From assembly GCF_041410465.1 (NCBI RefSeq), contig NZ_CP166961.1, forward strand, positions 2,542,001 to 2,606,000: a stretch of DNA of 64,000 nucleotides. Direction: 5' to 3'. This DNA is from Thalassotalea sp. 273M-4. Its GTDB lineage: Bacteria > Pseudomonadota > Gammaproteobacteria > Enterobacterales > Alteromonadaceae. The notes below the pieces were generated by a model, which made no database searches, was not told the origin of the DNA, and was given only the letters and a program-made list of their open reading frames with translations. Position 1 is the stretch's first letter. Each line of letters opens with the position of its first letter. The position numbers and the translations under genes were made by a program. Shown piece after piece: positions 11,863-20,411 of this stretch.

Positions 11863-12004
11863 ATACCTAACCGAATTTAAGCTCTATTCACCATGATAGA
11901 GAATACAAAGGGCGGAGGATAACCGATCTCTCCTAGAAAGAATAAGTATAAAAAATGAATTAAATATATTTAAAAGCTATATAGAAGGCATTATTGCTCT
12001 GCTG

Positions 12005-12037
12005 TGGGATCCGTCATTCAATATGAGAATCTCAGTC
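12005..12037 (+). repeat. Left terminal inverted repeat (33 bp)
   Basis: Starts TGGGATCCGTCATTC and ends GAGAATCTCAGTC. It is identical over all 33 bases to the reverse complement of 20176-20208. It is preceded by GCTG, which recurs just outside the right copy. Confidence 0.92.
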
Positions 12038-12224
12038 AATAGGATTAAGTCTAATTACTTAAAGCTTGTTCGAAATCTTAAGTATGAGGGGATATCGGTA
12101 AACGTTACAATTATCAGCGAGAGTCGTACACCAAGAAGTGGTATCCAATAAATCTGAAAGACAGAACAGTTATTGCGTCACGATGTTGGATACATCCTCT
12201 TCAATATAGGAGGAGGCTGTTTAC

Positions 12225-12248
12225 GGCCGAGTTGTGCCAAACTCGGCC
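12225..12248 (+). terminator. GC-rich hairpin, possible terminator
   Basis: Nine-base-pair perfect stem GGCCGAGTT / AACTCGGCC with a 6-base loop. The T-run is weak (AATTTTTC begins about nine bases later), so terminator function is uncertain. It closes the open stretch that starts near the left terminal repeat. Confidence 0.5.
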
Positions 12249-12300
12249 ATTCAGCTAATTTTTCATACACCTAATAAAACCAAAACAACCGACATTTACC

Positions 12301-12330
12301 CTAACTCATTTTTGGACAGAAACGAGTTAG
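12301..12330 (+). repeat. Palindromic 30-mer, left copy
   Basis: Begins CTAACTCATTT and ends AAACGAGTTAG, forming a near-perfect hairpin. It matches 18870-18899 at 27 of 30 positions in the same orientation. The right copy lies just upstream of the IS30-type gene, so both may be ends of IS30-family elements. Confidence 0.75.
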
Positions 12331-12404
12331 GACGAACCTATGCGTTGTGCCAGAAGCAGACGCAAATAATGCATGTTGCAAGATCTACCCCAAGTCTAGT
12401 ATAA

Positions 12405-12641
12405 CTAAATTATCAGGCTGTAAATAGCTATCTTATTTCGACCAATTAATAACCACTTTAAAGTGGTAAGCATCGACCTGATAGTACCTTCTGTAACTCC
12501 ATCTTTACGTCCTCGTGACACTAATCTAGTCAAGTGACCACCATTCAAACCATGCAATTCCGCTTGAAGTGAATAAACTCGAGATAACTGAACGTTCAGT
12601 GTTCTAATTAGTGTATCAAGGTTTTGTTGATTGACCGCCAT
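12405..12641 (-). CDS. Doubtful small ORF (78 aa)
   Basis: Reading frame of 78 codons, MAVNQQNLDTLIRTLNVQLS at the start. The N-terminal two thirds could be helical, with heptad-like Leu spacing (LDTLIRTLNVQLSRVYSLQ). Only a weak ribosome-binding site is seen and no family is recognised. It lies between the left repeat and the RHH gene on the opposite strand. It may be a fragment of a lost gene of the island. Confidence 0.25.
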   Translation of the reverse strand: MAVNQQNLDTLIRTLNVQLSRVYSLQAELHGLNGGHLTRLVSRGRKDGVTEGTIRSMLTTLKWLLIGRNKIAIYSLII

Positions 12642-12829
12642 CGTCTTACTAGTTTCATATTCCTGTATTGCTTCAGCTAAAGTGATCGTCGGTCTATCAC
12701 CTAATACATGATGTCTGTATAGTGTTTCTCGTCATTGACTCTAAAAGCGCAAGGCTAACGTCTTTTTAGTAGTTCTAGTGCTCCGAATAAAAACTTTATT
12801 ATTTATACTGACTTCGCAATTATAAGATT

Positions 12830-12859
12830 TTGAGTTTTTCCGCTTATAAATCATATATT
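12830..12859 (+). promoter_or_regulatory. Candidate sigma-70 promoter for the restriction-modification operon
   Basis: TTGAGT (12830-12835) and TATATT (12854-12859) separated by 18 bases, about 130 bases upstream of the RHH gene start. Seen by eye only. Confidence 0.35.
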
Positions 12860-12988
12860 CTCTCAATGTTTACAGCTATTAAATAGCTTCCGCTACTTTT
12901 TCTATAAGAGAACTCAATTGACGACTCGATCTAATGCTAGTACCCTTTCATTAAAATGGATACACATTGTAGCCACAAGGTGACAACA

Positions 12989-13189
12989 TTGAGTGCAAAA
13001 ACTTCAGCATTGAGAATACGAATTGAACCTGAGTTACACAGCCAATTTCTTAAGTGTTGTCAAGAATTAGATCGACCCGCAGCACAAGTCTTAAGAGAGT
13101 TTATGCGAGATTTTGTTATGCAGAATTCTAATTCTAAACAGGTATTGCTCCCATTAAAACAACCATTATTTGACAATAATGAGAATTAA
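12989..13189 (+). CDS. Ribbon-helix-helix protein, candidate regulator of the restriction-modification operon
   Basis: Short protein with the pattern ALRIRIEPELHSQFLKCCQE followed by LDRPAAQVLREFMRDFVMQN. This fits a ribbon-helix-helix DNA-binding fold: one beta strand with alternating residues, then two helices. An upstream ATG at 12956 would give 77 residues, but no ribosome-binding site precedes it. A TTG at 12989 is preceded by AAGGTG at good spacing and gives a 66-residue protein that starts right before the strand, so I prefer it. It ends 10 bases before the first methyltransferase. Many type II systems carry a small control protein, usually an XRE-type helix-turn-helix, so an RHH here would be a different solution. 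An orphan antitoxin is the alternative. Confidence 0.7.
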   Translation: MSAKTSALRIRIEPELHSQFLKCCQELDRPAAQVLREFMRDFVMQNSNSKQVLLPLKQPLFDNNEN

Positions 13190-13199
13190 GTTTCCGTAA

Positions 13200-14435
13200 A
13201 TGATTAATAAACAACTAACTTTCATTGACCTGTTCGCTGGTGCTGGTGGATTCGGCCTAGGATTTGAAAATGCTGGTTTCAGGCAGTTATACGCCGTTGA
13301 AATTGATAAATGGGCCGCTGAGACCCACCGTTTCAATTTTCCTAGAGTCCCTGTCATTGAACAGGATATATGTGAAATTACTAACGAAGAAATTTTAGAG
13401 CTTAGTAATGAGAGACCTGACGTAATAATAGGTGGTCCTCCTTGCCAAGGCTTTTCACATGCAAACATTGTAAATAAAGATCCAAAAGATCCGAGGAATT
13501 CACTCTTTGAGGAGTTTATTCGATTTGTAGATGTGCTACAGCCCAGAGTGTGCATCATCGAAAATGTGCCAGCGTTGTTAAAAACTAAAACCGCCTTAGG
13601 AGAGCAAGTAATTGACGTAATTACATCTGAACTTGAACGAATGGGGTTTAGTACTAGTTACGAACTGCTAGACGCAAGAAATTTTGGTGTCCCACAGAAA
13701 AGGCAAAGATTGTTTGTAATAGGCGTAAACAAAAAGTATCCCAAATTACTTAAGGAATCTTTGTTTCCTTCACCGACACACAATGAATTAGGCAGTGGAG
13801 ACCTTTTCAACTCAGAGGATATGAAACAAGAAGTTACTCTTTGGGATGCGATCTCTGATCTGCCGCAAAGAACTTTTAGTGATTTTGACTGCAATGAATC
13901 TTACCAGTGCTTGCCCAAAAATGAATATCAAGAGCTAATGAGGGCAAATTCTAATGGGCTACTAACTAACGCTGAACCAATGAGGCACACACAAAGAGTG
14001 ATCGACAGGTTTAAGGAAATTAAGATCGGCCAGAGTGAAGGCAACGTAACCCAAGACAATATGCCCAAAAAGCGTGGTAACCCAAGTACTATCTCGGAAA
14101 AAAGATATTCACAAAATAGTAGACGTCAGTCACCTAACTCTCCTTGTAACTCTGTTGTTGCGTCCTCTCACTCAAATTTCATTCACCCTTATTTGCATAG
14201 GAACTTCACAGTTAGGGAATTGTTGAGAATACAATCTTTTCCAGATAGATTTGAATTGAAGGGAAAACGGGCTGTATTAAGCAAAAAACTATCAATCAAG
14301 AAAGGATTGTTAGATGACATTTATCTAGATCAACGTATGCAAGTTGGTAATGCTGTTCCTCCCTTATTATCAGAAGACTTGGCTCGAAATATTGCTGTAG
14401 TGTTAACGGAAAGAGGTTGTACTAATGTCGCTTAA
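13200..14435 (+). CDS. DNA (cytosine-5) methyltransferase 1
   Basis: A 411-residue C5-cytosine methyltransferase that protects host DNA using S-adenosylmethionine. Motif I is FIDLFAGAGGFGLG (about residues 8-21), the catalytic Pro-Cys loop is GGPPCQGFS with Cys82, motif VI is ENV (121-123), motif VIII is QKRQRLF (about 166-172) and motif X is QVGNAVPPLL (about 381-390). The target-recognition region lies at about 200-340. The stop codon overlaps the next gene by 11 bases. Two non-identical m5C enzymes in one operon suggest an asymmetric recognition site, each enzyme covering one strand. Confidence 0.95.
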   Translation: MINKQLTFIDLFAGAGGFGLGFENAGFRQLYAVEIDKWAAETHRFNFPRVPVIEQDICEITNEEILELSNERPDVIIGGPPCQGFSHANIVNKDPKDPRNSLFEEFIRFVDVLQPRVCIIENVPALLKTKTALGEQVIDVITSELERMGFSTSYELLDARNFGVPQKRQRLFVIGVNKKYPKLLKESLFPSPTHNELGSGDLFNSEDMKQEVTLWDAISDLPQRTFSDFDCNESYQCLPKNEYQELMRANSNGLLTNAEPMRHTQRVIDRFKEIKIGQSEGNVTQDNMPKKRGNPSTISEKRYSQNSRRQSPNSPCNSVVASSHSNFIHPYLHRNFTVRELLRIQSFPDRFELKGKRAVLSKKLSIKKGLLDDIYLDQRMQVGNAVPPLLSEDLARNIAVVLTERGCTNVA

Positions 14436-15633
14436 AGTTCTAGACTTATTTGCTGGTTGTGGCGGACTATCTAGTGGCCTAGAAATGGCTGGATTGGAAG
14501 TTCTAGCCGCATGTGAAATTGATCAGTGGGCAGCCGATACTTATCGTCATAACCACCCTAATGTTGAAGTTATACAAAAAGACATATCTTCAATAGAAAA
14601 AGGTTTTTGGAAGAATAAATTTAACGGAAAAGTAGATATTGTCGCGGGGGGGCCTCCATGCCAAGGGTTCTCTGTTTCAGGTAAGAGACAATACGGGATT
14701 ATCGCTGAAACTAATTCACTAGTTACCGACTTTTTAAGAGTTGTTGAAGAAGTAGATCCAAACTACGTCATAGTAGAAAACGTTAAAGGTTTTAAGACTG
14801 GTAGTATCAGTAAGAACAAAAAGGTTTTTGACTATTTAAATGACTCTCTTGAGTCATTAGGCTTCAACGTTTACCACAGAACATTAAATGCTGAAGAGTA
14901 TGGTGTCCCTTCGCTAAGATCGCGTATTTTTATTATCGCGTCAAAAATACAATTAGATGAACCTTTTCTTGCTCCTACTCACTCTCCTGATGCAATTCAT
15001 GGTCTTCAACCCTTAGTCACAGTTGATGAAGCTATTTCTGATTTACCTGAACTAAATGCATCGGAAGGGGTAGAGGATAGCCAAGAATATAAAACAAATT
15101 TTCGAAATGAATATCAAAAAAAAATGAGGCTAAATTCGAAAGCTGTTTATAATCATGTATCTATGAAACATACTTCTAGGCTAGTAGAACGGTTTAAAAG
15201 TATGGAACAAGGACATAGTAGTTACAGAATTGGCCGAAAAACCGATGAAAAGAAAGTCACCTCATATAAAATGAATAATCAAAGGTTATTCGGAAATAAA
15301 CCATCCCTTTGTATAACAGCTAACTTTCAATCAACTTTTATACACCCGACTCAGCACAGAAATCTGACTGCTCGAGAAGCTGCGAGGTTGATGTCTTTTC
15401 CTGACAGTTATATTTTTAAAGGAAAACGCACGCAAATGAGCTCTAAGTTTTTAAAAAAACATGGACGTGAACATGAAGATTTTTTAAGTCAGTATAATCA
15501 GATAGGAAATGCAGTTCCCCCTTTATTAGGAAGAGCTGTTGCTAATGGCTTACTTGAATCAATAAATAAAGCAACAACTAAAACTCAAGTAGAAATTAAA
15601 GAGACGGAACCAAAACTTCAACTTTGTTATTAA
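14425..15633 (+). CDS. DNA (cytosine-5) methyltransferase 2
   Basis: A 402-residue second C5-cytosine methyltransferase. Motif I is VLDLFAGCGGLSSGLE (about residues 5-20), the catalytic loop is GGPPCQGFSVSGKRQ with Cys79, ENV is at 118-120, and motif X is QIGNAVPPLL at about 359-368. The middle region differs from the first enzyme, implying a different half-site or strand specificity. The start overlaps the end of methyltransferase 1, and the end lies just before the first endonuclease gene, giving a compact M-M-R-R operon. Confidence 0.95.
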   Translation: MSLKVLDLFAGCGGLSSGLEMAGLEVLAACEIDQWAADTYRHNHPNVEVIQKDISSIEKGFWKNKFNGKVDIVAGGPPCQGFSVSGKRQYGIIAETNSLVTDFLRVVEEVDPNYVIVENVKGFKTGSISKNKKVFDYLNDSLESLGFNVYHRTLNAEEYGVPSLRSRIFIIASKIQLDEPFLAPTHSPDAIHGLQPLVTVDEAISDLPELNASEGVEDSQEYKTNFRNEYQKKMRLNSKAVYNHVSMKHTSRLVERFKSMEQGHSSYRIGRKTDEKKVTSYKMNNQRLFGNKPSLCITANFQSTFIHPTQHRNLTAREAARLMSFPDSYIFKGKRTQMSSKFLKKHGREHEDFLSQYNQIGNAVPPLLGRAVANGLLESINKATTKTQVEIKETEPKLQLCY

Positions 15634-15641
15634 GGATCGTA

Positions 15642-16460
15642 ATGGCAAGCAGCAGTTTATCTCATAAAAATAATCTAATTCAAAAGAGTAAGCGTATTAA
15701 ACAACTGACACCAAAAAGGCTTCAGATTTTAGATAACGTAAAGAAAAACTATGTTCAGTACTTGAAAGAAGCTAATTGGAGCGAAGTAAAAAAAGGCAAT
15801 GTAGTTCCAGCAGTTAAAGCTTTAGATAATTACGTTAATTACACTAAGGAAATAGAAAAACAAGATTCTTTTTTTAATTGGAGAAGTGATTTTGCTGGAA
15901 GCGTAATCCCTGAATTTTTATTTAGAGTTTTTTCCAATAGACTTAGGGAACTTAATATTCCACACTTTTTTAGTACAAGGGGTTCAGTAGTTGAAATGAC
16001 CCTCAATGGTACTGCCGATAACGCTTGGAATATTAGAAGAAAAAATCAAGATTTATGTTTAGGTGGAGCGATTTGTTCGACCATCATTGAAGGCGCGAAG
16101 CAATCATTTGTTGTACCTTCTATAATATTTGAAGTAAAAACAAATATTGATATTAACAAGTTGAATGGGCTTGAATTTTCAGCAGAACGACTTAAACGCA
16201 CATTTCCTACAGCAAAATATTTCCTAGTTACGGAAACAGTGGATTTTTCTCTGAAAGACAATTATGTAGCAGGCCACCTAGATGAAATATATTGCCTAAG
16301 AAAACAAGTGCGCTCTGAAGCACGAAGAAATAAAGCAGCCTTAAAGTCCGATGTTTTTCAAAAATTATTAGATGATGTTGTAAATTCGATGCGATTGGCA
16401 ACGACTTCTAAAGGGCATGTTTATGACCGTTTAGAAACTGGGAAACTGATAAATGCCTAA
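15642..16460 (+). CDS. Restriction endonuclease subunit 1 (Bpu10I/BbvCI-like)
   Basis: A 272-residue protein using the ATG at 15642, which has AAGGATC seven bases upstream; a TTG 18 bases earlier has none. The likely PD-(D/E)XK centre is Asp137 in RRKNQDLCLGG with Glu164 and Lys166 in VPSIIFEVKTN. C-terminal landmarks are LKRTFPTAKYFLVTET and DEIYCLRKQ. The same landmarks recur in the next gene, so the two are related but divergent subunits. Heterodimeric enzymes such as Bpu10I and BbvCI have this design, each subunit cutting one strand of an asymmetric site. The gene overlaps the next by 8 bases. The family name is an inference from motifs and gene order. Confidence 0.8.
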   Translation: MASSSLSHKNNLIQKSKRIKQLTPKRLQILDNVKKNYVQYLKEANWSEVKKGNVVPAVKALDNYVNYTKEIEKQDSFFNWRSDFAGSVIPEFLFRVFSNRLRELNIPHFFSTRGSVVEMTLNGTADNAWNIRRKNQDLCLGGAICSTIIEGAKQSFVVPSIIFEVKTNIDINKLNGLEFSAERLKRTFPTAKYFLVTETVDFSLKDNYVAGHLDEIYCLRKQVRSEARRNKAALKSDVFQKLLDDVVNSMRLATTSKGHVYDRLETGKLINA

Positions 16461-17307
16461 TTATATTTTCGAACCTACAACTTATATTCATGGCAGCAAA
16501 CTTAAAAATAAAGTTTCCAATCTGAAGAATAAAGAAGACCCTCTATTTAGTTGCCTTGAACAATACGAAATATGGAAAGAGCGTTCGTTACAGATAACTA
16601 AAAGAGATGATGCTAGCATAAACCTTCTAGTACAGTACTTAAACGATTATAAAGACTTTTGTGAGGAAATATTTGATAGTCGAGAGAATAGTGCACAAGA
16701 AGTTCTACAGCCTTCAATTCTAGAAGAGTTCTTTGAATATTTATTTTGCAATATATCTGATGTAATTGGTAAGGACATGATAAGGAAACCTGCAAAAGGA
16801 TTTGTCGACTTAATATTTAACCCCAGTTCGATAGATACCCTACTTGACGTACCGGAGTATACAGTTAGAAGAAAAGACCATGATTTTGTGCTTGGTTCCA
16901 ATATAAAACTGACCGTAAGTTCTGATAAGACTAATAATCAATTGCAATCAGATTTAGTGATTCCCTCAATCGCAATAGAATGTAAAAGATATCTGGAGCG
17001 TAATATGCTTGATGAATGCTCTGGTACAGCAGAGAAGGTAAAAAGAGCAACTCCATATTGCAAATACTTTGTTGTTGCTGAGTATTTAAAAATGGATAAA
17101 GCATCTCCAGAAATGTCTCTAATTGACGAGATATATGTGCTGAGAAGACAAAGAAACTCAGATAGGCTATCCGAGAACTTCATACCTAATCCAATTTATA
17201 CAGATCTAGTCATTGATTTGTATACTCAGTGTATAAATCATCTAAAAAAGATTTGGTGGGATCCCGAATCAGCCTTAAAGGAAGGGAAAGTATTTAACTT
17301 AGATTAA
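16453..17307 (+). CDS. Restriction endonuclease subunit 2 (Bpu10I/BbvCI-like)
   Basis: A 284-residue protein paralogous to the preceding subunit. The likely catalytic set is Asp144 in VRRKDHDFVLGS with Glu176 and Lys178 in IPSIAIECKRYLE. It shares VKRATPYCKYFVVAEY and DEIYVLRRQR with the matching segments of subunit 1. N-terminal halves of the two proteins are dissimilar, consistent with recognition of different half-sites. Last gene of the operon, 115 bases before a strong hairpin terminator. AT-rich codon use, together with that of subunit 1, suggests recent acquisition. Confidence 0.8.
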   Translation: MPNYIFEPTTYIHGSKLKNKVSNLKNKEDPLFSCLEQYEIWKERSLQITKRDDASINLLVQYLNDYKDFCEEIFDSRENSAQEVLQPSILEEFFEYLFCNISDVIGKDMIRKPAKGFVDLIFNPSSIDTLLDVPEYTVRRKDHDFVLGSNIKLTVSSDKTNNQLQSDLVIPSIAIECKRYLERNMLDECSGTAEKVKRATPYCKYFVVAEYLKMDKASPEMSLIDEIYVLRRQRNSDRLSENFIPNPIYTDLVIDLYTQCINHLKKIWWDPESALKEGKVFNLD

Positions 17308-17615
17308 TGGTTAGCTTTCTATCGAAAAATTATAAATCATAAGTATGTCTATGATTAATTTCATTTAAATACAGGGTGTTAACTGTAATTTTAGGCACAT
17401 GTTAGGGAAAGTGTTAGCGGAGTTGGCCTTTTACGAATAAAAAGGCCAATTTTTAAGAATTGGTTTCAAGTTTTTTCAAACTTATACCGCTAGAATCTAA
17501 CCAGTGGTTTCTGTCATTAATTGGATATCCAACAAGTATCGTAGCTGCTTGAAAGAACAGGGAGCGTATTGCACTGTGCAAAGCGCGCGTCACCTATGTC
17601 TTCTTTTGGTACTAT
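17308..17615. other. Non-coding spacer between the endonuclease operon and the IS3 element
   Basis: Contains the operon terminator and otherwise nothing I can assign. The last five bases (ACTAT, 17611-17615) are repeated at the other end of the IS3 element. Confidence 0.6.
17423..17454 (+). terminator. Rho-independent terminator of the restriction-modification operon
   Basis: Ten-base-pair perfect stem TTGGCCTTTT / AAAAGGCCAA with a 7-base loop, followed by TTTTT. Confidence 0.88.
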
Positions 17616-17640
17616 GATCTTGCCCCAATAAAATGGACAG

Positions 17641-18459
17641 TTAATTAACGTTATCATGTAATGCTTCAAAGTCCGAAGGACTTTTGAATCCAAGGTAACT
17701 ATGCAGCCTTTTTCGATTATAGAAACACTCAATGTAATCGAAGATATCAAGCTTTGCTTCTTGACGCGTTCGATACTTGTATTTACGAATACGTTCTCGT
17801 TTTAACGAGCCGAAAAAACTTTCTACAACAGCGTTATCATAGCAGTTACCTCTAGCACTCATGCTACACAAGATGTGATGCTTTTTCAGCATATTTTGGT
17901 AGTCATCACTGCCGTATTGAGCGCCTTGGTCTGAGTGAATGATAACACCTGGTGTTGGTCGTCTTGTTGAAATCGCCATTTCAAGCGCTTGAATCGCTAA
18001 GTGACGTCCCATGTGTCTGCCCATAGACCAGCCAATGATTTTTCTTGAATACAAGTCCATTACGACGGCTAGATAGACAAATCCCTGTCTGGTTTGGATA
18101 TAAGTAATGTCCGACGACCAGACTTGATTAGCTTGGTCTGCAACGAAGTTCTGCTTTAGTCTGTTTGGTGCGATATTCGAGTATTGGTTTTTCTGCTTAA
18201 CGTAACCAGATGGACGTTTAGGGCAGCCTTTTAGCCGAGCATAACTCATAAGCTTAGCTACTCGATTCTTGCCACAAATAACGCCCTGAGCGCGCAATAC
18301 ATGCTGAATACGTGGCGCACCATACACACCACGACTATCGTCATGAATCTTCGAAATTAAGTTGGTCAGTCTGATATTTTCTTGTTTTGTTTTGCACACT
18401 GGACGGCTTAACCAAGCGTAAAAACCACTACGAGAAACCCCTAATGCTCGACACATCAT
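17641..18459 (-). CDS. IS3-family transposase OrfB (DDE integrase domain)
   Basis: A 272-residue catalytic half of an IS3-type transposase. The N-terminal HTH_21-like segment begins MMCRALGVSRSGFYAWL. The DDE triad lies in SSDITYIQTRQGFVYLAVVMD, VIIHSDQGAQYGS and CYDNAVVESFFGSLKRE, and the C terminus has the YNRKRLHSYLGF signature. The frame stays open upstream of this ATG into KFRCIKRHRKLYPID. It is therefore probably made mainly as an OrfAB fusion through a minus-one frameshift at 18540-18546 rather than from its own start. Confidence 0.95.
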   Translation of the reverse strand: MMCRALGVSRSGFYAWLSRPVCKTKQENIRLTNLISKIHDDSRGVYGAPRIQHVLRAQGVICGKNRVAKLMSYARLKGCPKRPSGYVKQKNQYSNIAPNRLKQNFVADQANQVWSSDITYIQTRQGFVYLAVVMDLYSRKIIGWSMGRHMGRHLAIQALEMAISTRRPTPGVIIHSDQGAQYGSDDYQNMLKKHHILCSMSARGNCYDNAVVESFFGSLKRERIRKYKYRTRQEAKLDIFDYIECFYNRKRLHSYLGFKSPSDFEALHDNVN

Positions 18460-18503
18460 ATCTATGGGATATAGCTTGCGGTGCCGCTTAATACAGCGAA
18501 ATT

Positions 18504-18800
18504 TTAGTCGGACTCCTTGGCGAAGAACACCACCGCATCTTTTAAAAAATCCCGTTCTTTTTTAACTTGAGCTAGTTCTTTCTTTAGCTCTGCGATTTCT
18601 AAGTTCTTAGTAGCTGTTGTTGCTTTGAACGCATCATCGCCCTTGAGACGAAACTCATCTCGCCATCGTCGCAACTGGCGTTCGCTAATTTCAAGCTCTT
18701 CACAGACTGACTTATCCGTCTTTCCATCCTCAGAAGCTCGCAATAGAGCCATTCGTTTAAATTCGGCAGGATACCGTTTGTAGTTTTTGCCTTTTGTCAT
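18504..18800 (-). CDS. IS3-family OrfA (helix-turn-helix, leucine zipper)
   Basis: A 98-residue DNA-binding half of the transposase. The ATG at 18800 is preceded by GAGAGG. Helix-turn-helix region KRYPAEFKRMALLRASEDG through SERQLRRWRDEF, then a coiled coil (NLEIAELKKELAQVKKERDF) ending FLKDAVVFFAKE, which is the usual IS3 layout. It ends shortly after the frameshift site that links it to OrfB. Confidence 0.94.
   Translation of the reverse strand: MTKGKNYKRYPAEFKRMALLRASEDGKTDKSVCEELEISERQLRRWRDEFRLKGDDAFKATTATKNLEIAELKKELAQVKKERDFLKDAVVFFAKESD
18540..18546 (-). promoter_or_regulatory. Programmed -1 frameshift heptamer in the IS3 transposase
   Basis: On the minus strand the OrfA frame reads GAT TTT TTA AAA GAT. 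This contains T TTA AAA in the correct X XXY YYZ phase. Slipping back one base gives an open frame (RCGGVLRQGVRLKFRCIKRH) that runs into OrfB. Phase was checked against the OrfA start. Confidence 0.8.
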
Positions 18801-18869
18801 AAACACCTCTCTACTTCAATTGTAGTGTGTCCATGAAAATGGGGTAAGACGACTATTGAGACCTTAATT

Positions 18870-18899
18870 CTAACTCATTTTGGGGCATAAACGAGTTAG
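18870..18899 (+). repeat. Palindromic 30-mer, right copy
   Basis: Same orientation as 12301-12330 with 27 of 30 bases identical; arms CTAACTC and GAGTTAG. It lies 77 bases upstream of the IS30-type start codon, so it is a candidate terminal repeat of that IS. Confidence 0.75.
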
Positions 18900-18976
18900 T
18901 ACCACTGTCCGCTATTGGCTGTGAGTTCAACTGGTGAATGCAACGCTATCCTTATACTAGCTTAAGGAACGTTAAC

Positions 18977-19879
18977 ATGAAACAGAGAAAACGCATCTAC
19001 TACAATGCTCAGCAAAGAGCATTAATTTGGGATCGCTACAAGCAAGGTGATTCGGTTCACGATATCGCTAGGCTTTTTGACCGATTCCACTCATCAATAC
19101 TGGGCATTATCCATAAAACCGGTGGGTATCGGCCCCCAGAACGAACCCGTTCATCAAGCATATTATCATTAGCTGAACGTGAAGAAATATCCCGTGGTTT
19201 AGTTTCTAATTTATCGTTTAGAGCCATAGCTAGAAAGCTAGGTCGAGCACCTTCAACTATTTCTCGTGAAGTTAGACGGCATGGTGGGCTTAAACAATAT
19301 CGAGCAAATAAAGCAGATGCAGCAGCTTGGGAAAACGCAAAGCGTCCTAAACCTTGCAAGCTATCAGGTAGCAAAGCATTATGTTCAATAATCGCTAGAA
19401 AGATGAAAGCGGCATGGTCACCGCAGCAAATATCTGGCTGGCTTAAAAGAAAGTACCCTCCTCGCCCAGTTACGAATAATTTAATCGTTTCAATTACACA
19501 AGGGTTTGAGCTTTTAACCCAAACAAATGAGCTTAATAAACTGATCGAAAAACTGCGTTCCGATTCAAGTCCGTTTTATGCATTAGAGAATAAGTATCGT
19601 TATTTTCCGCTAACCCTCTTAATTAAGAGCTTACATACAGAATGGCCAATTCACAGTTCAACAAGGGCCTTTAAATTATCAAAAGAGAATCGAAAAGAAT
19701 CCTCCCCCCTCTCTGGCACTTACCTTGTCACCGTAGCTGACGCCATAGAAACTCTAGGTATATCGAAAGATCAAATGGTTAAATTCGTACCTGAAGTTTC
19801 CAGCAAAAGAATCCTTAGAAACAAGTTTTGCATTAACATCATGCCGATTATCCAAGGCATGCCATCAAATAATCAATAG
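18977..19879 (+). pseudogene. Truncated IS30-family transposase fused to a possible TniQ-like tail
   Basis: The ATG at 18977 has AAGGA upstream. The first 160 or so residues are IS30-like: an N-terminal helix-turn-helix, then ERTRSSSILSLAEREEISRG, IARKLGRAPSTISREVRRHG, and AWSPQQISGWLKRKYP. At about base 19460 similarity stops where IS30 should continue into its DDE domain. About 140 unrelated residues follow in frame. This tail contains SDSSPFYALENKYRYFPLTL and a helix-turn-helix-like LVTVADAIETLGISKDQM. I read the tail tentatively as the C terminus of a TniQ/TnsD-type protein; that is a weak call. No catalytic triad is present, so no transposase activity is expected. Confidence 0.75.
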
Positions 19880-20411
19880 AACACAACTGCATACCGCCAT
19901 TCAAACCTTACTTCTTTAATAAAAGATCTCATTTAACCCCTTATTCTCGTCTCAAAGAAATTTGCCCACTAAGATATTATTTGCTATTTATATGGATTGG
20001 TGTGCTGAATATTCATCTTTCGCCGCTTTTTGCTTTAGCGCATTCGTATTATTAGCAAATAGACATTACTCAAGAGCTGTCACAAACAATGAGATTATTG
20101 ATAACAATTCTCACTAGGAAGGAAATATTTTTTCAGAGTACTTCTCTGCAGCGCCTGCTATACAAGAACTCCAAAGACTGAGATTCTCATATTGAATGAC
20201 GGATCCCAGCTGCCCCCCATTACTCAATCAACTCGCCACTCTCCCCCACAATAAAGCTAAAATTGTTTTGATTGGGTTATTTAATCTCCCATATTGCAAA
20301 GGAAATTCTTTTTGTCTATGTTCAAAATGAGGCCTTTTTATACCTATTTTTCAATACTCTGTTAAATTTAAAGAGTATGAAAAATCTGAGCCACTATACG
20401 GGAGAACAAAT
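19880..20411. other. Right end of the island and flank, no gene
   Basis: Holds the right terminal inverted repeat (20176-20208), the GCTG direct repeat and, beyond the island, the upstream region of the DUF1232 gene. No RNA gene or further reading frame was recognised. Confidence 0.6.
20176..20208 (-). repeat. Right terminal inverted repeat (33 bp)
   Basis: Exact reverse complement of 12005-12037. GCTG follows at 20209-20212, matching the GCTG just before the left copy. Confidence 0.92.

Follow-up and report, generated by a model that had tools for sequence, protein, structure and literature searches.

A probable decayed Tn7-like transposon in Thalassotalea sp. 273M-4 and its relatives with four-base target duplications

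Island ends and the TniQ remnant

The window analysed here, 64,000 nt of contig NZ_CP166961.1 from Thalassotalea sp. 273M-4, contains an island with a predicted restriction-modification (R-M) system between two perfect inverted repeats, and we regard it as very probable that this island is a decayed Tn7-like transposon. Its relatives form a well-supported group, as judged from their sequences, that duplicates four bases of the target. Island coordinates are window positions; compared genomes are labelled with G-numbers, the own genome being G000 and G003 a congener, and C in such labels stands for contig. The two arms of the island are 33 nt long, 100% complementary and separated by 8138 nt, and GCTG flanks them on both outer sides (Table 1). 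The direct repeat comprises these 4 bp and no more, since the next bases differ on either side (T against A, T against C). In the window the 33-mer was found with up to 3 mismatches at the island ends only, and none of 100 shuffles reached two matches. A preliminary description of this DNA had reported the perfect 33-bp repeats and their GCTG flanks, and both were confirmed, as were the R-M genes, the IS3 reading frames and a truncated IS30-like gene inside the island (open reading frame (ORF) list and Pfam).

The origin is indicated by the ORF at 18938-19879, which starts as an IS30-type transposase and is TniQ-like in its C-terminal part. Apart from itself, this remnant found a counterpart in two of the 147 family genomes searched, at E 6e-16 and E 2e-15, and both are tniQ genes closing complete tnsA-tnsB-tnsC-tniQ operons. 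The Tn7-like origin with lost mobilising genes, which the preliminary description had suggested, is supported by these matches. The remnant gave no match among plasmids or in Pfam, and no meaningful match in the PDB. In the operon of G098 the Pfam models for TnsA-like, TniB, AAA and TniQ proteins match, with rve for TnsB just below the cut-off, and the PDB sequence matches of this set are TnsAB, TnsB, TnsC and TniQ of Tn7-like systems. PF06527 matches the TniQ of G098 and that of a resident element in the own genome, and is below cut-off in G005.

The ends lead to the same relatives. Those beyond TniQ in the genomes with these tniQ matches have TGAGAATCTCA in common with the window repeats. 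Six of the 395 family genomes contain the pattern TG-N17-TGAGAATCTCASTC, and none contains its reversed control. The terminal inverted repeat of the window is identical at 29/33 positions to the cargo-side end of G138 and at 27/33 to those of G098 and G342, as compared to 23/33 for the tniQ-side ends of the same three. By eye, the right end of the island has an inner motif of the tniQ-side type while the outermost 33 bp are cargo-type, which suggests that the perfect symmetry of the island is probably secondary. The candidates for TnsB-binding repeats, also read by eye, are the terminal motif and, at the tniQ side alone, a single inner one. Exact-pattern scans gave one match of the 20-bp core in genome contigs, in an Ignavibacteriae contig and taken as chance, and none of the 19-bp core in viral contigs. 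The match G033:C5:667986, with no tns match within the 27 kb read, was likewise considered a likely chance match and excluded from the counts of elements and sites.

The own genome has the 33-mer at four places within 3 mismatches, and a fifth at which its inner 26 bp are found with 2 mismatches. Two of these are the island ends, and the other three (2707071, 2614197 and 3280674) are solo ends. The solo end G000:C1:2707071 (solo_cysJ) is exact and lies 121 bp upstream of cysJ, and G000:C1:2614197, with 2 mismatches, lies 188 bp upstream of a P-II (glnK-type) gene, both with the outer side towards the gene start. The 33-mer was found in 2 of 15 genus genomes, the own included, and in 2 of 295 family genomes, each time the own genome and G003. 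A search of relatives for the 33-bp end, as the preliminary description had proposed, found the ends in one of the 14 other congeners, contrary to the absence from other genomes that it had named as refuting, and there they enclose other cargo, two PD-Lambda-1-like genes and a CRISPR-like array. The array (L013 7516-9058 = G003:C1:818516-820058) has 21 repeat units, the first degenerate, mostly of 37 bp, with spacers of 32-37 bp, and lies directly inside a 33-bp end copy, closed by a partial end copy. It gave a single weak phage match (26 bp, E 0.5) and no plasmid match, its repeat was not found in viral contigs, and Cas1 (PF01867) was found in neither of the two genomes searched, G003 and G000 (control 9/14). 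Two degenerate repeats of the array also occur in a 547-bp mini-unit between two inverted ends (L013 12733-13279), whose outer 4-mers are unequal. Among the genus genomes, the right-end DNA was found in the own genome and G003 only. The right ends of these two are 88% identical as compared to 71% for the DUF1232 gene region, which suggests transfer or recent spread.

The resident element of the own genome (G000:C1:3269901-3280669) is complete, with a target site duplication (TSD) of GTTA and a PifA-like gene. The solo end at 3280674 directly adjoins its right GTTA copy, which implies that two insertions, one of each lineage, used exactly one position. The preliminary description had considered movement in trans, and it is conceivable that this TnsABC-TniQ element continues to mobilise both the island and the solo ends, in the manner of mobile insertion cassettes. 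The full operon, with a TnsB free of internal stops, would agree with this, and so would the shared site, the perfectly conserved island repeats and the identical 33-mers at solo_cysJ and in G003. However, the ends of the resident element, to which the only TnsB match of the own genome belongs, are only 22-23/33 identical to those of the island, a comparison that included the resident TniQ gave no match of the TniQ remnant to it at E 1e-4, and in G003, where the ends are present, no TnsB was matched at E 1e-6. Movement in trans is therefore unlikely, and this suggestion was not upheld.

Under the preferred reading, decay of a Tn7-like transposon, the ancestor would have had tnsABC-tniQ beside its right end, with a two-subunit Bpu10I-like R-M system as cargo, and its TnsB would have joined the ends across a 4-bp stagger. 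The tnsABC genes and most of tniQ were then presumably lost, with IS30 and IS3 debris at the same spot. TnsB is absent from the window island (ORF list, Pfam and TnsB search), and the island is now most likely stranded.

Four-base duplications in related elements

Around each tns operon, a script looked for 33-bp inverted repeats starting with TG and flanked by equal 3-, 4-, 5- or 6-mers. Nine of the 20 operons scanned could be resolved, all with 4-bp duplications, which together with the window makes ten elements. The calls came from 5 of 8 operons (G098, G138, G342, own and P. shioyasakiensis), 1 of 2 (G005) and 3 of 7 (G810, G820 and G808), and none of 3 distant operons was clear; the ends of G098, G138, G342 and the own element were already known from motif searches before the duplication length was tested. 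The duplications are ACAG (G098), TCAG (G138), TCAC (G342), GTTA (own resident element), ATTA (P. shioyasakiensis), ATCA (G005), TGCG (G810), TAAA (G820) and GGGG (G808, with the 3-mer GGG contained within it). All nine elements have matches to TnsA, TnsB, TnsC and TniQ; in P. shioyasakiensis, where the ends are on the megaplasmid CP076682.1, the TniQ reading frame is unannotated in the plasmid table. A 4-bp duplication had been thought in the preliminary description to fit Tn7 poorly, an objection not supported by the 4 bp of all nine related elements whose ends could be resolved.

Several results weigh against a four-base Tn7-like group. A 5-bp duplication is a stated hallmark of Tn7 relatives, and it was found neither at the island nor at any of the nine. 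Eleven of the 20 operons gave no clear end pair: ten in G611 (two operons), G455, G004, G309, G758, G384, G766, G006 and G010, with single ends in G004, G309, G758, G384 and G766, and the second operon of G005, where the only pair is a low-complexity TGTGTG one that fits both 4 and 6 bp. The best pair of G455, beside a dif-like site, is 22/33 with 3 bp and does not start with TG, and the outer flanks in G003 have no matching TSD. By eye, a 5-bp reading that counts a terminal A as target fits six of the ten elements, and one with a terminal T five, while the 4-bp reading is alone among those compared in fitting all ten. In a distant Tn7-like element of Acinetobacter, used as a control, the highest-scoring 33-bp pair was the one with 5 bp (24/33); the 4-bp pair (22/33) lies inside it, and with 20-bp ends the two tie at 16/20.

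A duplication of 4 bp together with TG..CA ends is also typical of IS21, and it could be argued that a different DDE family, for instance IS21 with IstA/IstB, made the ends and that the TniQ-like piece is a bystander. The matches to all four Tns proteins between the ends of nine out of nine resolved elements, and the inner motif that the window, G003, G098 and G138 have in common, by eye, in their tniQ-side terminal regions, make this very unlikely. Least likely of all is that the arms are not transposon ends but dispersed repeats unrelated to each other, or that they belong to an invertible segment, since, although the 33-mer or its core also stands alone at three places in the own genome, there are matching 4-bp duplications, the same kind of ends surround full tns operons, and no site-specific recombinase is among the Pfam matches of the island ORFs scanned.

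The group of TnsA-TnsB-TnsC-TniQ elements with these ends is small and was found here in Alteromonadales. Among 5.8 billion sequences, the G098-type TniQ has 15 protein clusters (E <= 1e-10) and the G098-type TnsB at least 21 (E <= 1e-30), the latter after scoring the 7996 candidates that shared most words; names among them include Alteromonas, Aliiglaciecola, Colwelliaceae and Shewanella. A conserved divergent gene of 162-178 aa lies beside tnsA (L036 14613-15149, L037 14269-14757), with about 30% identity between both copies. The G098 copy has no Pfam match, and the gene is possibly an accessory factor or a regulator. In G766 two ends are oriented away from one another and separated by exactly 4 bp, TGCC (G766:C16:26187-26256), and their far ends were not found.

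No report of 4-bp duplications in Tn7-like elements was found by title or abstract opening in a largely non-subscription full-text literature; in the portion of PMC10201428 consulted, "4-bp" refers to mutation sizes. If a TnsABC transposase truly joins DNA across 4 bp, the rule of 5 bp for all Tn7 relatives needs an exception, and the geometry of TnsB and TnsC would be testable by comparing the 4-bp and 5-bp groups.

Candidate target sites

The cargo-side flanks of the closest relatives have a common feature, the palindrome TGTAAG-N6-CTTACA. It is found 38 bp from the insertion in G098 (2 mismatches), 37 bp in G138 (3), 39 bp in G342 (2), 36 bp in G810 (1) and 37 bp in G820 (3), and without mismatches 35 bp outside the solo end G033a of G033. 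The pattern thus holds for five of five resolved close relatives, at 36-39 bp, and for one solo end; boxes with 3 mismatches or fewer were present in 21 of 600 random 100-bp pieces. The box had been predicted in writing before the last genome search, in which three of seven new elements were resolvable; G810 and G820 have it and G808 does not. The palindrome is the UvrY/GacA box that PMC3171408 describes in front of Shewanella csrB1 and csrB2.

Beyond the box, GGA is much more frequent on one strand than on the other: 13/2 in G098, 19/1 in G138, 20/1 in G342, 12/2 at the own resident element, 22/1 in G033, 21/0 in G810 and 19/0 in G820, as compared to 1-8 in the other 14 flank segments, from other element sides or outside other ends. 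Rfam CsrB/CsrC models match in G138 (E 8e-7), G342 (0.49) and the own genome (0.25), and CsrC in G810 (E 3e-5). The Csr-like loci lie beside a yihI-like gene in G098 and the own genome, and beside a DUF3301-like/yqcC/truC-like cluster in the others (names by eye), neighbourhoods that we take to be those of csrC and csrB in E. coli. The near-identical elements of G098 and G342 (97-99% protein identity) sit, by eye, at two different Csr-like loci.

Other observations speak against such a target. The highest GGA counts in 200 dinucleotide shuffles were 13 (G098), 19 (G138), 15 (G342), 12 (own) and 20 (G033), and only G342 and G033 exceed all of them. Every Csr-like RNA match is below the Rfam gathering score, and G098, G033a and G820 have no Rfam Csr match at E <= 1. 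By eye, no more than half a box is present at the resident element, and no box was found at that distance in P. shioyasakiensis, G808 or G003. The window island has none better than 4 mismatches within 300 bp, with one such at 40 bp, a level seen in 142 of 600 random pieces, and the window gave no Rfam match at gathering scores. The Csr-box pattern is thus not general to the wider group.

The island itself has its cargo end facing the start of the symporter gene, as the other cargo ends read face a gene start or a Csr-like RNA, and its tniQ side likewise faces a gene start. The pair of window island and solo_cysJ was not among the best 22 flank pairs with a common motif. The G005 element is located upstream of a glnK-type gene, as is the own solo end 2614197. 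A dif-like site (G808:C1:146029-146093), matching E. coli dif at 21/28 positions, lies 36 bp from the end of the G808 element, and the GC skew around it has no clear switch. Another (G455:C51:134017; 25/28 to E. coli dif) is near an operon without a clear end pair. An association of the insertions with terminators was also considered but not retained.

The TniQ of the closest intact relatives probably reads a GacA/UvrY-type box that precedes the Csr-like small RNAs, and would direct insertion 36-39 bp from it with the cargo end facing the box. We lean slightly towards the broader idea that the TniQs of the 4-bp lineage home on palindromic host-regulator sites, the GacA/UvrY box in the closest group and possibly dif in G808 and a glnK promoter region in G005 and the own solo end, and insert defence islands some 36-39 bp from such sites, the cargo end pointing to the promoter. 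If so, a TniQ reading the box of a bacterial regulator would be an unusual target choice, defence islands would stand beside the switch of the Csr/Rsm pathway, and otherwise puzzling perfect-repeat islands without a transposase would be explained. One paper, PMC8450108, reportedly links the Csr/Rsm pathway to CRISPR-Cas control. A full-text search for "Tn7-like" together with "csrB" found no literature.

Island genes and comparison with known systems

The cargo of the island is predicted to be a Bpu10I-like type II R-M system, with C5 methyltransferase genes and two RE_Bpu10I-type subunits (Table 1). The R-M genes and the IS3 copy are flanked by 43-bp direct repeats (12291-12333 and 18860-18902), each with a CTAACTC...GAGTTAG stem. 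A symporter gene is present next to the island, but the cystine type that the preliminary description assigned to it is not established, since the match is of the GltP/DctA type and under the NCBIfam cut-offs. A search for an empty site covered 11 congener loci of about 3.3 kb, in none of which the symporter was seen next to the DUF1232 gene; in five of the 11 it was also not seen in the 8-9 kb surrounding that gene.

Table 1. Features of the island and its borders (window positions)
Feature	Position	Strand	Evidence
Target site duplication, left copy GCTG	12001..12004		sequence read
Left (cargo-side) end, 33-bp inverted repeat, 142 bp from the symporter start and facing it	12005..12037	+	repeat search and end comparison
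43-bp repeat, possibly an IS30-type end remnant	12291..12333		81% identical to 18860-18902
77-aa ribbon-helix-helix-like protein, possible R-M regulator	12956..13189	+	RHH_9 E 1e-4, 22.4 bits, just under curated cut-off 23.4
C5-cytosine DNA methyltransferase 1	13200..14435	+	PF00145 E 3e-67; PADLOC MTase_II
C5-cytosine DNA methyltransferase 2	14425..15633	+	PF00145 E 9e-71; PADLOC match
Bpu10I-type restriction endonuclease subunit	15642..16460	+	PF09549 E 3e-8; no PADLOC match
Bpu10I-type restriction endonuclease subunit	16453..17307	+	PF09549 E 1e-27; no PADLOC match
IS3-family transposase orfB	17641..18459	-	ORF list and Pfam
IS3-family transposase orfA	18504..18806	-	ORF list and Pfam
N-terminal remnant of IS30-type transposase, boundary approximate	18938..19460	+	HTH_38 E 4e-23; no rve match in ORF
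TniQ C-terminal remnant, in frame behind the IS30 remnant	19463..19879	+	alignment reaches 19852, ORF ends 19879; 33-34% to TniQ residues 189-318 of 328, E 6e-16
tniQ-side terminal region	19955..20208		DNA comparison; 88% identical to right end of congener G003
Inner conserved motif of tniQ-side end, common to G003, G098 and G138; candidate second TnsB site	20087..20115	-	by eye
Right (tniQ-side) end, 33-bp inverted repeat	20176..20208	-	repeat search and end comparison
Target site duplication, right copy GCTG	20209..20212		sequence read

With Tn7 and Tn7-like elements (TnsABC with TnsD/TniQ), the relatives share the homologs of TnsA, TnsB, TnsC and TniQ and the TG..CA ends. The position of the insertions in the close relatives, at a nearly constant distance from a candidate recognition site and in the same orientation to it, may be a further parallel. 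Defence cargo is likewise shared, going by an extract of the survey PMC8649781. The relatives differ in duplications of 4 and not 5 bp and in having as candidate site the box of a regulator, ahead of a small RNA locus, and the window copy differs in having no tnsABC. The I-F3 CRISPR-associated transposons (CAST; Tn6677, PseCAST) are among the best PDB matches of TnsB and TnsC of G098, and TniQ matches CAST TniQs, but no Cas gene was noticed by eye in the operons read, Cas1, in G003 and G000, being the only one searched for. The IS21 family has the same duplication length, whereas the relatives have TnsA, a TniB-type ATPase and TniQ, no operon of istA-istB only, and carry cargo. Mobile insertion cassettes of the IS231 type resemble the island in having cargo between ends without a matching transposase, but the island ends belong to the Tn7-like group.

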